A stretch of 22,336 nt of DNA from a virus, in IMG/VR virus record IMGVR_UViG_3300003771_000014, positions 1-22,336 of that record; one strand, written 5' to 3'. Under the pieces are notes generated by a model. That model had not been told where the DNA came from, did no database searches, and worked only from the letters and a program-made list of their open reading frames with translations. This document shows, piece after piece, positions 1,612-18,913 of the stretch. Both the position numbers and the translations under genes were made by a program. Every line of letters begins with the position of its first letter. The stretch's first letter is position 1.

Positions 1612-2478
1612 ATGAAAGTCATCATCATTGGCAGCGTGATTCACGCCGCGCTGAACGCCGCAATGTCCGCCCTGGCCGGTGCCGCGGTGGTCGAGTGGGA
1701 CGGCGCCGACGACGCGTACCGCGAGAAGGTGGTGGGCGCCGTGCAGTTCGCCATCGACAACCCCGATGTCACCCCGGAGCAGCAGCACGAGCAGTGGCGC
1801 GAAGCGCGCATCGCCGAAGGCTGGGCCTTGGCGGAAGCCCATGACGCGGAAAGGAAGCAGAGTCCGCTGCTGGTGCCCTACGCCGACCTGTCGCCGGAGC
1901 AGCGCACCAAAGACGCGCTGGTGCATCGACTCGTGCTGGTGCTGAAAGACATCCCGGATGCCGACGACGCCGTCGAGGCATTCCGCGCCAACCTGCCGCC
2001 GCCGGTGGAGCGTGCCGTACCGACTGGCGAATTTGCCGCTGTTGCGCTGGGCATCGGCGTGGGTGTGAAGTACATCGGCCGCCGGCCCGATTGGAGCGAC
2101 CGCATGTACGGCACCGGTCTGGTCTTCGTCACGGACCAGGTCCGCGCACTGCCGGAGGCTATCGCCCGCAAGCTGCTCCGGCATGCCGACCTGTTCGAGC
2201 GCGCCGATGTCGAGGCGGTTCTGGCGATGGGCACCGACGCCATCGGTACGGACGCCGACACCGCGAAGTTGCTGGAGCAGGGCAAGAAGCAGCAGCAACG
2301 GCAAGAGCGCGATCTAAACCAGATCCAGGACATGTACGACCAGATCGACCGTATGGACAAGGCCGGCCTGGTCGAGTTCGCCAAGGTGAACTACCGGCAG
2401 GACTTGCCCAAGAACGCGACGAAGGATGTCCTGCGCGCGCAGGTGAAGGGCTTCGTTGACCAGTTCGGGGTGGTATGA
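1612..2478 (+). CDS. RyR-domain phage head protein
   Basis: A 288-aa protein with ATG 1612 preceded by AGGAG (1595-1599) and AGGA (1601-1604). Residues ~55-108 look like a RyR domain (the ryanodine-receptor repeat fold also found in bacterial and phage proteins): HEQWREARIAEGWALAEAHD, then LLVPYADLSPEQRTKD. Residues ~153-198 (VKYIGRRPDWSDRMYGTGL, then LPEAIARKLLRHADLFERAD) resemble a small domain common in phage head-completion proteins. Residues 217-248 are Gln/Lys-rich and probably coiled coil. The C-terminus ~247-283 (MDKAGLVEFAKVNYRQDLPK...) has the pattern of a HeH/SAP-like helical module. Its TGA overlaps the next ATG (ATGA). Position between capsid and adaptor suggests a head-associated role; the ligand of the RyR domain is unknown. 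Confidence 0.75.
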   Translation: MKVIIIGSVIHAALNAAMSALAGAAVVEWDGADDAYREKVVGAVQFAIDNPDVTPEQQHEQWREARIAEGWALAEAHDAERKQSPLLVPYADLSPEQRTKDALVHRLVLVLKDIPDADDAVEAFRANLPPPVERAVPTGEFAAVALGIGVGVKYIGRRPDWSDRMYGTGLVFVTDQVRALPEAIARKLLRHADLFERADVEAVLAMGTDAIGTDADTAKLLEQGKKQQQRQERDLNQIQDMYDQIDRMDKAGLVEFAKVNYRQDLPKNATKDVLRAQVKGFVDQFGVV

Positions 2479-3152
2479 AGCTGGCCGAACTGATCCGCCG
2501 CGTGCGCGTTGACGGGAACGACAACGTCGCGCCGTACTTCTGGTCGGACGCGGACATCACCGCCTGGCTGAACGACGCCGTGGCGGAAGCCGCGGTGCGC
2601 GGCCGCCTCATCCACGAGAGCGAGGATGCCGCCGTTTGCCAGATTGCGGTGGAGGCGGAACGGTCGGCCTATCCCCTGCACGAAGCGCTGTTCGAACTGA
2701 CGTACGTTGGCTTCCTTGACGCTGGCGCATACCGGCCGCGCACGCTTCGCTTGGTGTCGACCGAGTGGCTGGATGCCAGCATCCGCGAATGGCGCACGTG
2801 CCGCGGCTATCCGCAGTACGCCGTCCAGTCGGACAAGGGCCTGCGCCTGGTGCCGATGCCGTCGGCGCCGGGCAAGCTGGTCCTTGAGGGGTACCGGCTG
2901 CCGCTGGTGGCCATGGACCTGCAGAAGAAGGACCAGGATGAACCGGAGATCGGGCCGGCGCACCACCCGCATCTGGTTTATTGGCCACTGCATCGCGGCT
3001 TCAGCATTCCCGATATGGAGGCCTTCGATGCACGGCGTGCGGGGGAGGCGGAGGCGGCATTCACTGCCTACTTCGGCTTCCGTCCCGATTCGGACCTGCG
3101 GCGCATCACGCGGGAGGATGTGCCGCATCACGTAGAGGCGTTCTGGCCATGA
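2475..3152 (+). CDS. Head-tail adaptor-like phage protein
   Basis: A 225-aa protein whose ATG overlaps the previous stop by four bases, indicating translational coupling. The N-terminus (MKLAELIRRVRVDG, then FWSDADITAWLNDAVAEAA) is a typical start for phage adaptor/connector proteins that sit under the portal. The middle is beta-rich (VSTEWLDASIREWRTCRGYP, then LRLVPMPSAPGKLVLEGYRL). The C-terminus is helical and acidic around MEAFDARRAGEAEAAFTAYF, then FRPDSDLRRI. I place it in the DUF6682-like adaptor group by resemblance only. Gene order after capsid-associated genes supports the connector role. It could instead be a tail-tube protein. Confidence 0.65.
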   Translation: MKLAELIRRVRVDGNDNVAPYFWSDADITAWLNDAVAEAAVRGRLIHESEDAAVCQIAVEAERSAYPLHEALFELTYVGFLDAGAYRPRTLRLVSTEWLDASIREWRTCRGYPQYAVQSDKGLRLVPMPSAPGKLVLEGYRLPLVAMDLQKKDQDEPEIGPAHHPHLVYWPLHRGFSIPDMEAFDARRAGEAEAAFTAYFGFRPDSDLRRITREDVPHHVEAFWP

Positions 3153-3373
3153 CAAAGCTGGCCGTTGACCTGAAAATCGGTGAGGTGCTGACCATCGGCA
3201 CGGCCACCGTGCGGCTGGAGAGGAAATCCGGCCAACTCGCGCGGCTGATGATCGTTGCCGACGAGCACACCCCAATCGTTACCCCCAAAGCAAGGCGGGA
3301 AGCCGCCGGCGAAGCGCGCATGAGTGCGCTCCAACCTGATATGGAGCCCACCTATGGCAAACACCCTGTATGA
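3149..3373 (+). CDS. 74-aa CsrA-like small protein
   Basis: ATG 3149 overlaps the previous TGA (ATGA). Residues 6-46 follow the CsrA/RsmA strand pattern: LKIGEVLTIG aligns with the CsrA segment around VGETLMIG, and VRLERKSGQLARLMIVADEH with the following strands including the central Gly and Arg. In my alignment the RNA-binding positions R6, R7 and R44 of E. coli CsrA become Leu, Lys and a non-Arg residue, so classical RNA binding may be altered or lost. The C-terminal ~28 residues (KARREAAGEARMSALQPDME...) are an added tail without a family match. It overlaps the next gene by 20 nt. Roles could be regulation of late mRNAs, or a CsrA fold reused in the virion. The similarity is by eye. Confidence 0.6.
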   Translation: MTKLAVDLKIGEVLTIGTATVRLERKSGQLARLMIVADEHTPIVTPKARREAAGEARMSALQPDMEPTYGKHPV

Positions 3374-3761
3374 CTACGCCCGCCAGCGCTTCCTGGAGGG
3401 TCAGCTTAACTGGCTGACCGACACCATCAAGGTGTACCTGGTCGACACCGGCGCCTATACGCCGCAGACGGCGGTCCACCAGTACCTGTCGGACATCCCG
3501 ACGTCGGCGCGTATCGCCGGCCCGGTCACGGTCACTTCCAAGACGACCACCGGTGGCGCGGCGGACGGTGCCGATATCACGTTCACGAGCGTGTCGGGCG
3601 CGAGTATCGAAGCGATCGTGATCTACAAGGATTCCGGTACCGAGTCGACCAGCCCGCTCATTGCTTACATCGACACGGCCACGGGTCTGCCAATCACGCC
3701 GAACGGTGGCGACATCATCGTCACTTGGGACAACGGCACCAACAAAATCTTCCGCGTCTAA
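3354..3761 (+). CDS. Conserved 135-aa phage structural protein
   Basis: ATG 3354 has GGAG (3343-3346) seven bases upstream; the in-frame ATG at 3324 lacks a ribosome site. The start lies within the end of the CsrA-like gene. The protein begins MANTLYDYARQRFLEG, followed by LNWLTDTIKVYLVDTGAYTP and HQYLSDIPTSARIAG. The C-terminus holds SIEAIVIYKDSGTES, LIAYIDTATGLPITPNGGD and IIVTWDNGTNKIFRV. I recognise this as a widespread small beta-rich protein of phage tail/structure modules, with no function known to me. No signal peptide or transmembrane segment is present. A virion role is inferred from location. Confidence 0.75.
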   Translation: MANTLYDYARQRFLEGQLNWLTDTIKVYLVDTGAYTPQTAVHQYLSDIPTSARIAGPVTVTSKTTTGGAADGADITFTSVSGASIEAIVIYKDSGTESTSPLIAYIDTATGLPITPNGGDIIVTWDNGTNKIFRV

Positions 3762-3787
3762 CGGCGCCCTGCGCAGGAGTGCATGCC

Positions 3788-4096
3788 ATGTCCGAGAGCA
3801 TGAAGCCACTACCCATCATCGTCGGTGTCAGCGGCATCGAACCGCGTAAGCAGGAGACCGCGCCCGCGACGCCGATCCCGTGGGGCCGTATTTGCGGCCT
3901 GCCGGCGTTCGAAATGTTCGTCTCGGAGAGCAGCGGGCGGCCGTTGGCCAACGTCGCCGATGCGATGCGCCCTTTCATGGCGGAGCAGATCGCGAAGCTG
4001 GGAGAGCAGGGGCTGTTTGACACCTACAGCCAGTGGCACAAGGAGAAAGGAATGTGGCCCGGAGAAACGTCGCTTGGGGAACTGGCTGATGCCTAA
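3788..4096 (+). CDS. Small phage protein of unknown function (102 aa)
   Basis: ATG 3788 follows AGGAG (3775-3779) at eight bases. The N-terminal third is Pro-rich and probably extended (IEPRKQETAPATPIPWGRIC); the rest is helical (ANVADAMRPFMAEQIAKLGE, then QGLFDTYSQWHKEKGMWPGE). I do not recognise a named family. The last eight bases overlap the start of the propeller gene, so the two may be co-translated. Adaptor, assembly-helper or chaperone roles for the next gene product are possible but unsupported by motifs. Confidence 0.7.
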   Translation: MSESMKPLPIIVGVSGIEPRKQETAPATPIPWGRICGLPAFEMFVSESSGRPLANVADAMRPFMAEQIAKLGEQGLFDTYSQWHKEKGMWPGETSLGELADA

Positions 4097-9853: not shown

Positions 9854-9922
9854 ACCATCCCGATCGTCCGGGTCTTCAATCGCTGCGCATGAGTGCGGCA
9901 TAGGAAAACTGGAGTGAAACCT

Positions 9923-10513
9923 ATGCAACGCATTAGCAATGCCCTGCGCATCGAAATGGCCACCGCCCTGGCGGCCGGCAATTTCAACGTCACCGAAGCC
10001 GGCATCGTCTTCCCGCAGCTTTCGGCCCTGGCCGGCGGCGAGTACTTCGGCCGTGTCAACGGCGCCGAGTGGGAAAAGGAAGGCGACAACCTCATCCCGA
10101 CCGAGGGACTGGCGCACATCCTGAACGTCGCGCTGGGTGGCAAGGCCAAGGCGTCGTGCTTCCTGGCGCTGTTCTCCGGCAGCGCCGTGCCGGCCGCCAA
10201 CTGGACGGCGGCCAACTTCGCCGCGGTGGCGTCGGAAATCACCAGCCTGACCGAGGGCTACACCAGCGCGACGCGGCCGGCGTGGACGCCTGTCGACACC
10301 GCCACCGGCTCCATCGACAATATGGCCGCAGTGGCGTCGGTGACGATTGCGACGGCCTCGCAACTCAACGTCAACGGCGCCGCGCTGCTGACCAACAGCA
10401 CCAAGGGCGGCACCACCGGCGCGCTGGTGTCGGCATCCAAGTACGCCGCCACCCGGGTGTTCCAGAACGGCGACACGTACGATATCGGCTATCGGCTGAA
10501 TCTGACCGTCTAA
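9923..10513 (+). CDS. Conserved phage tail-type structural protein (196 aa)
   Basis: ATG 9923 follows GGAG (9911-9914) at eight bases; the ATG at 9893 has no ribosome site. Residues ~59-135 (NLIPTEGLAHILNVALGGKA, then CFLALFSGSAVPAANWTAAN and ATRPAWTPVDTATGSIDN) match a widespread beta-rich phage protein whose copies often start near the LVPTEGL motif. The extra ~55 residues here form an N-terminal extension. The C-terminus (VFQNGDTYDIGYRLNLTV) is the family's usual last strand. The gene sits after a 69-base gap, one of the few in the operon. Its exact virion location is unknown. Confidence 0.72.
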   Translation: MQRISNALRIEMATALAAGNFNVTEAGIVFPQLSALAGGEYFGRVNGAEWEKEGDNLIPTEGLAHILNVALGGKAKASCFLALFSGSAVPAANWTAANFAAVASEITSLTEGYTSATRPAWTPVDTATGSIDNMAAVASVTIATASQLNVNGAALLTNSTKGGTTGALVSASKYAATRVFQNGDTYDIGYRLNLTV

Positions 10514-18691: not shown

Positions 18692-18913
18692 TCAGTTCTT
18701 GTGCCGATAGTTGATACGTCCCTTTGTCAGATCATACGGGGACATCTCAAGGGTGACGCGGTCACCGGCCAGCACGCGGATGCGGTTCTTCTTCAGTCGT
18801 CCGGACGAATAGGCCCAGACCTCAAATCCATTCTCAAGGATGACCCGAAATCGGTTGTCGGGTAAGACCTCCGAGACCTTGCCGCCGAATTCCACCAGTT
18901 CTTCTTTCGCCAT
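18692..18913 (-). CDS. infA: Translation initiation factor IF-1
   Basis: A 73-aa protein, the normal length of IF-1, whose OB fold binds the 30S A site and helps IF-2 and IF-3 start translation. The start [18 protein letters not shown] and the segments [40 protein letters not shown] and [11 protein letters not shown] follow the family along its whole length; against E. coli IF-1 recalled from memory, more than half the positions look identical. ATG 18913 follows AAAGGAG at five bases. The MAKEEL...YDLTKGRIN pattern resembles the second IF-1 copy found in beta-proteobacteria. It lies 35 bases after a small gene on the same strand and ends before a terminator. An IF-1 gene inside a phage late region is unusual. 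Confidence 0.93.

Follow-up and report, generated by a model that had tools for sequence, protein, structure and literature searches.

The virus record analysed here (IMGVR_UViG_3300003771_000014, a 22-kb record taken in its full length of 22,336 nucleotides and called the window below) carries a gene for a CsrA-like protein among its head genes, which raises the question of what such a protein does there. Earlier work has interpreted the csrA-like genes of phages either as 'morons' that manipulate the host or as genes that suppress CRISPR expression. We consider it fairly probable that the protein is a phage-owned CsrA-type regulator of altered specificity, which would open RNA switches on late structural genes. 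Here we present the fold of the protein, the position of its gene, an RNA element, the covariation of this element with the start region of the following gene and its co-occurrence with the CsrA-like gene, all of which were computed in this analysis.

The gene is located at 3149..3373 on the plus strand, and the ORF list and translation agree with the original prediction in giving a product of 74 aa (MTKLAVDLKIGEVLTIGTATVRLERKSGQLARLMIVADEHTPIVTPKARREAAGEARMSALQPDMEPTYGKHPV). Residues 3-58 match phrog_8397, 'CsrA-like regulator' (E 4.9e-19), and both profile and structure matches were obtained. As had been noted before, the gene overlaps both neighbours, sharing 4 nt (ATGA, 3149-3152) with the ORF upstream and 20 nt with the ORF downstream (ATG at 3354). 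Its direct upstream neighbour is a head-tail adaptor gene (2475..3152, plus strand; phrog_399, E 1.6e-53; Pfam SU10_adaptor, PF24175, E 5.4e-25). Downstream follows a phrog_644 gene (3354..3761, plus strand; E 4.8e-52), which is 79-91% identical in the aligned relatives and whose product has an AlphaFold2 model of low confidence. It is a putative target of the CsrA-like protein, as are a phrog_11163 gene (3788..4096, plus strand; E 1.2e-19, reading frame checked) and a phrog_8123 gene (9923..10513, plus strand; E 5.4e-88). The window from position 1 to about 7,370, i.e. ~7.4 kb around the CsrA-like gene, is identical to IMG/VR contig 3300005511_000073, and part of this region is ~77% identical at the DNA level to F116-like Pseudomonas phages. 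The gene upstream of the adaptor gene (1612-2478) has a RyR domain match (PF02026, E 1.1e-8). An ORF on the minus strand (18695-18913), opposite to the structural genes, matches translation initiation factor IF-1 (PF01176, E 8.6e-22); the 4 kb from ~16.2 to 20.3 kb are free of long plus-strand genes.

The CsrA strand pattern seen in the product by the original prediction is borne out, with one deletion ahead of the second conserved strand pair. Single-sequence searches of the window protein against Pfam, NCBIfam and PDB gave no matches, and PF02599 was not matched at its cut-off; since the single-sequence searches came up empty, the link to CsrA is visible only via the family profile. With a profile of 37 relatives, a type of search suggested together with the original prediction, the best PDB matches are seven CsrA/RsmA/RsmE chains (best E 1.5e-6). 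Profile-profile comparison with CsrA gave E 6.6e-6 for the group of the window and E 2.8e-10 for the slot-A group defined below, whose members match PF02599, several of them above the cut-off. The AlphaFold2 monomer model (pTM 0.49) has strands at residues 13-16, 19-25 and 31-36 and a low-confidence helix at residues 49-59. The CsrA sheet is not missing from this model, as its 14 best PDB matches are CsrA/RsmA/RsmE structures (probability 0.97-1.00, with weak E-values). Profiles and model together indicate that the window protein has the CsrA fold and that its match to CsrA is not a product of chance. Pfam FlbT, a flagellin mRNA regulator, is also matched by 12 of the 37 relatives (best E 4.8e-4, alignment A3).

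In E. coli CsrA, R6 and R44 are required for RNA binding. The loss of RNA-contact arginines described in the original prediction is seen in the alignment, where R6 is replaced by L, R44 by T and R7 by K; positions 5-6-7 read D-L-K in the window protein and T-R-R in CsrA. All family members have D/E at position 5; position 6 is taken by I/L/M/V and position 7 almost always by K/R, and a nearly invariant KSG[QK]xAR motif occurs in place of CsrA HREEIY. The C-terminal REEIY/HREEIY helix sequence is absent from the aligned window protein. Because the fold is that of CsrA but the RNA-contact residues differ, the protein is placed in the CsrA superfamily, outside CsrA proper. The extra C-terminal tail is present as predicted, and the codons for its part ARMSAL lie over RNA element site a (see below). 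A CsrA fold with the RNA-contact arginines missing would also suit a decoy, the second idea of the original prediction, which blocks host CsrA by forming mixed dimers with it. This is scarcely credible, given that no feature found hints at a host CsrA partner, that the RNA element is left unexplained, and that the family also occurs in phage DC1, whose hosts reportedly lack csrA (PMC7366521).

The protein family was known beforehand, being annotated in F116/Bcep22-like phages, and phrog_8397 is matched by 37 of the 37 scanned relatives. Named members are F116 p47, DC1 gp46, Parlo gp62, LASTA gp20 and Pavtok gp9. The family has been labelled a moron (PMC9144972, PMC10269572) and a suppressor of CRISPR expression (PMC8450108). 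In the fetched loci the gene is always located within the head gene run, mostly in one of two fixed slots. Slot A is directly 5' of the major capsid gene and is found in phages of Burkholderia, Erwinia, Klebsiella and Serratia, in some Pseudomonas phages and in many metagenomic ones. Slot B, between the adaptor gene and phrog_644, is occupied in F116, 8P, the window and relatives, and in a few contigs the CsrA-like gene is several kb away from phrog_644. The genome contig scan delivered only two bacterial relatives of the protein; tblastn matches in Gordonia phages, which are on the strand opposite to annotated genes, were rejected as chance. Near the prophage copy on contig C166 of Pseudomonas sp. 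A-1 (G002) a canonical CsrA match scores 92.9 bits; two CsrA matches that are weaker and adjacent to each other, with 45 and 30.5 bits, are on the opposite strand. With automatic start choice, a GTG or TTG start is apparent in 15 of 52 distinct family copies from IMG/VR and genome loci, for example in the slot-A copies L034, L041, L042, L045 and L047; with such starts, translation of the regulator would be only weakly initiated.

A candidate target of the protein is found in the leaders of late genes. In slot-A phages the gap of ~100 nt between the gene and the capsid start contains repeated GCGCAGGA(N)GUGC, which can fold into a small hairpin whose loop is A[G/A/U]GA. The element, defined as the small hairpin GCGC-A[G/U/A]GA-GUGC by a pattern derived after inspection of the leaders, occurs in the window at sites a, b and c, all on the sense strand. 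Site a (GCGC-AUGA-GUGC, GCGCAUGAGUGC; 3316..3327, plus strand) is 38 nt 5' of the phrog_644 start, and site b (GCGC-AGGA-GUGC, GCGCAGGAGUGC; 3771..3782, plus strand) is an exact match 17 nt 5' of the phrog_11163 start, with a likely Shine-Dalgarno (AGGAG) inside the hairpin. Site c (GCGC-AUGA-GUGC, GCGCAUGAGUGC; 9885..9896, plus strand) is 38 nt 5' of the phrog_8123 start. F116 and 8P have the element at places equivalent to those of the window, and the place of site b is also occupied in other relatives. Strict matches number 3 in the window (0.07 expected), 3 in F116 (0.47 expected), 4 in 8P (0.13 expected; the fourth is located elsewhere), 2 in DC1 (0.07 expected; one is in the capsid leader) and 1 in Itty13 (0.13 expected; capsid leader). 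When the pattern was relaxed slightly, a site was present in 38 of the 40 distinct capsid leaders and in 14 of the 15 distinct phrog_644 leaders. A motif search of the window with two mismatches gave 6 matches against 6.4 expected, which is chance level, and for this reason only strict matches together with their position were used. A search of the window with GCGCANGANGTGC gave chance matches only, the reason being a fifth base imposed on the loop; the version with a four-base loop recovered the sites. At gathering thresholds, Rfam gave no match in the window and six loci.

Site a is within the 3' end of the CsrA-like gene in the branch of the window. Its RNA is read in another frame in L033 and L035 (AHEC) and lies outside the gene in L040 and L099; because relatives shift the frame or place the element outside the gene, what is conserved is the RNA. 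In slot-A capsid leaders a sigma-70-like pattern (TTGCA, about 17 nt, ATAATC) was seen by eye to recur 5' of the element, e.g. just upstream of it in L059 and L041, and the capsid gene may thus have its own transcript starting shortly 5' of the hairpin.

Canonical CsrA recognizes GGA within a hairpin loop, and AGGA loops are present in many elements. The hairpins could accordingly be bound by host CsrA/RsmA or by a canonical phage RsmM, with the CsrA-like protein as antagonist or unrelated, and F116 does encode a second, canonical RsmA-like protein in its early region. This reading is distinctly unlikely. Many loops are AUGA or AAGA, the element tracks the CsrA-like gene (see below), and other PF02599 matches were found neither in the window record nor in most of the searched records with the CsrA-like gene. 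In addition, DC1 has the element although chromosomal csrA is reportedly missing from Burkholderia cepacia and B. cenocepacia (PMC7366521). Loops that are often AUGA or AAGA, where GGA is expected for canonical CsrA, favour the altered specificity envisaged in the original prediction. GGA loops are associated with R or K at residue 44 (26/5 against 3/18, p 7e-7 uncorrected); co-evolution of this residue with the loop is not claimed because there is only one supported independent change.

The association of gene and element was examined in loci fetched by phrog_644, independently of either. Among the 49 distinct leaders, 30 have both, 16 neither, 3 the gene only and none the element only (Fisher p 2.9e-10, relatedness ignored); some gene-positive loci served for discovery as well as test, and the gene-negative set was not used for discovery. 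None of the 16 gene-negative contigs has a phrog_8397-type profile match (the same profile matched in 4 of 9 contigs in another search). No copy of GCGCANGAGTGC was found in the 12 gene-negative contigs searched, and each of 20 contigs chosen for gene or element has 1-5 copies. As site a adjoins the gene, a single deletion could take both, and therefore site c, which is separated from the gene by ~6 kb, was used as control. It is present in 7 of 8 gene-positive phages and in 0 of 11 gene-negative ones, which share the same downstream gene (p 1.6e-4, relatedness ignored). Site a is retained where the CsrA-like gene is 3.3-4.8 kb distant; it is missing at three gene-positive phrog_644 loci, and site c is missing in one gene-positive phage. 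On the phrog_644 tree, gene and element each change 8 times, and a tree-aware test has 4 supported independent pairs, all of them concordant but too few to reach significance (p 0.125).

Six capsid loci at which the element initially seemed to stand without the gene are not counted as exceptions. L199 and L205 have a diverged CsrA-like match elsewhere on the contig, L192 has an apparent diverged ORF beside the capsid gene (by eye), and L181, L198 and L212 are fragments (5.6-14.5 kb), so that a missing gene is uninformative there. The diverged CsrA-like ORF of the L205 contig (G091; L308 1429-1614, minus strand) has an EEKSGRS motif, and this phage, in which GCGCATGAGTGC occurs five times and the capsid leader contains the element, possibly represents a third gene-element arrangement.

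The constant position of the gene in the head gene run, together with one peptide of the related JC1 gp47 in purified virions, called unconfirmed by its authors (PMC9144972), would fit a protein that has borrowed the CsrA fold for a minor role in the virion or in assembly, the elements then being processing or stability hairpins of late mRNA. Such a role is very improbable, as it leaves the absence of the element from gene-negative phages unexplained, including the absence 6 kb away. Since phages with the CsrA-like protein also have matching hairpins 5' of capsid and other late genes, the protein is probably a translational switch of the phage for its virion genes. Of the functions considered in the original prediction, an altered-specificity regulator of late mRNAs is favoured by the co-occurrence of the gene with a hairpin before late structural genes.

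At most sites a longer hairpin is also possible, formed by the 3' half of the element and the start region of the following gene. At site a this long hairpin (3316..3358, plus strand) pairs the GGAG and AUG of phrog_644 (-19.3 kcal/mol, z -3.4 against dinucleotide shuffles, as for all z values). At site c it covers the phrog_8123 start (9892..9934, plus strand; -15.5 kcal/mol) with the AUG paired, and its energy alone is not unusual (z -1.7). With the small hairpin forced, the AUG is predicted to be unpaired with a probability of 0.63 instead of 0.06 at site a and, a small change, of 0.13 instead of 0.03 at site c; in capsid leaders the predicted change in start accessibility is mixed, with little in some. 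RNAalifold on MAFFT leader alignments recovered chiefly the small hairpin because the spacing of the distal arm varies, and for this reason covariation was assessed by exchanging arms among phages. In the 38 capsid leaders own arms pair at -15.9 and swapped arms at -11.5 kcal/mol (p 2e-4); the values for the 14 phrog_644 leaders are -11.8 and -10.2 kcal/mol (p 0.004). Compensating changes thus keep the complementarity between element and start. The optional loop base shows four pair types among the 19 leaders where it pairs in the best duplex.

In the proposed mechanism the CsrA-like protein would recognize the small hairpin GCGC-ANGA-GUGC 5' of late structural genes. As long as the protein is absent, the element would pair through its 3' half with the ribosome-binding or start region of the next gene, and the long hairpin would lower translation. 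Binding would stabilize the small hairpin, disrupt the long one and expose the start, so that translation would rise for phrog_644 (site a), phrog_8123 (site c) and, in slot-A relatives, the major capsid gene. At site b binding would more likely repress, because the likely Shine-Dalgarno sits in the small hairpin. The loss of R6 and R44 speaks against this mechanism, as do the few gene-positive loci lacking site a or c and the small or mixed accessibility changes at site c and in capsid leaders. Both the direct binding of protein to element and the direction of control are what we infer here.

The same protein-RNA pair might work in the opposite direction, as a feedback repressor which binds the element and restrains the late structural genes until sufficient protein has accumulated. 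Canonical CsrA mostly represses, the CsrA-like gene is co-transcribed with its putative targets, and the position of the likely Shine-Dalgarno at site b would suit repression. This is possible but rather unlikely: at sites a and c and in capsid leaders the element is located about 34-65 nt 5' of the start, mostly beyond the ribosome footprint, and the long hairpin covers the start already without any protein. The chief competitors of the proposed opening of late gene starts by the phage protein are this feedback repression and a recognition of the hairpins by host CsrA.

We incline, if only slightly, to regard protein and element as a self-contained post-transcriptional system of the phage, in which a CsrA fold re-tuned to ANGA in place of GGA would serve the phage's own switches, which would set translation of the capsid gene in one lineage and of several other late structural genes in another. 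If this is true, a widespread group of csrA-like genes controls the phage's own virion genes, the phage bringing both the protein and its RNA targets as a small host-independent protein-RNA switch. An annotation without tested function would become a testable regulon, and the family would provide a natural series of CsrA-fold proteins with altered loop specificity. The cognate RNA element looks new, while the protein family is already known; neither the element nor a late structural regulon was found in the literature searched, in which subscription journals were thinly covered.

Among known systems, the closest is phrog_8397 'CsrA-like regulator' itself, which has the same protein family and gene neighbourhood as the window gene; the papers found mention neither RNA element nor late regulon for it. 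CsrA/RsmA/RsmE proteins (PF02599) share the fold, the strand order and the G-E...I-G core, and the proposed target is likewise a small RNA hairpin with a purine-rich loop. They differ from the window protein in R6 and R44, both lost here, in R7, here K, and in HREEIY, here replaced by KSG[QK]xAR, and their GGA loops contrast with the frequent AUGA/AAGA loops of the elements described here. F116 gp24, a canonical phage CsrA of the RsmM type and 55% identical to E. coli CsrA (PMC7366521), is likewise phage-borne and of the same superfamily, but keeps TRR and HR and is encoded in the early region near the repressor. The csrA homologue PTXU04_00028, whose knockdown leads to small plaques (PMC11879866), also is a phage protein without the C-terminal helix sequence; unlike the window protein it keeps TRR and HR, and its gene adjoins the holin gene. 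As no such RNA element was found in the 50 kb searched of that phage, the knockdown is not taken as evidence for the proposed mechanism. Closest in mode of action is E. coli ymdA, which CsrA activates by opening a sequestering hairpin, just as binding is proposed here to hold such a hairpin open. At ymdA a host protein acts on a host target, whereas in the system proposed here a phage protein would act on phage targets.
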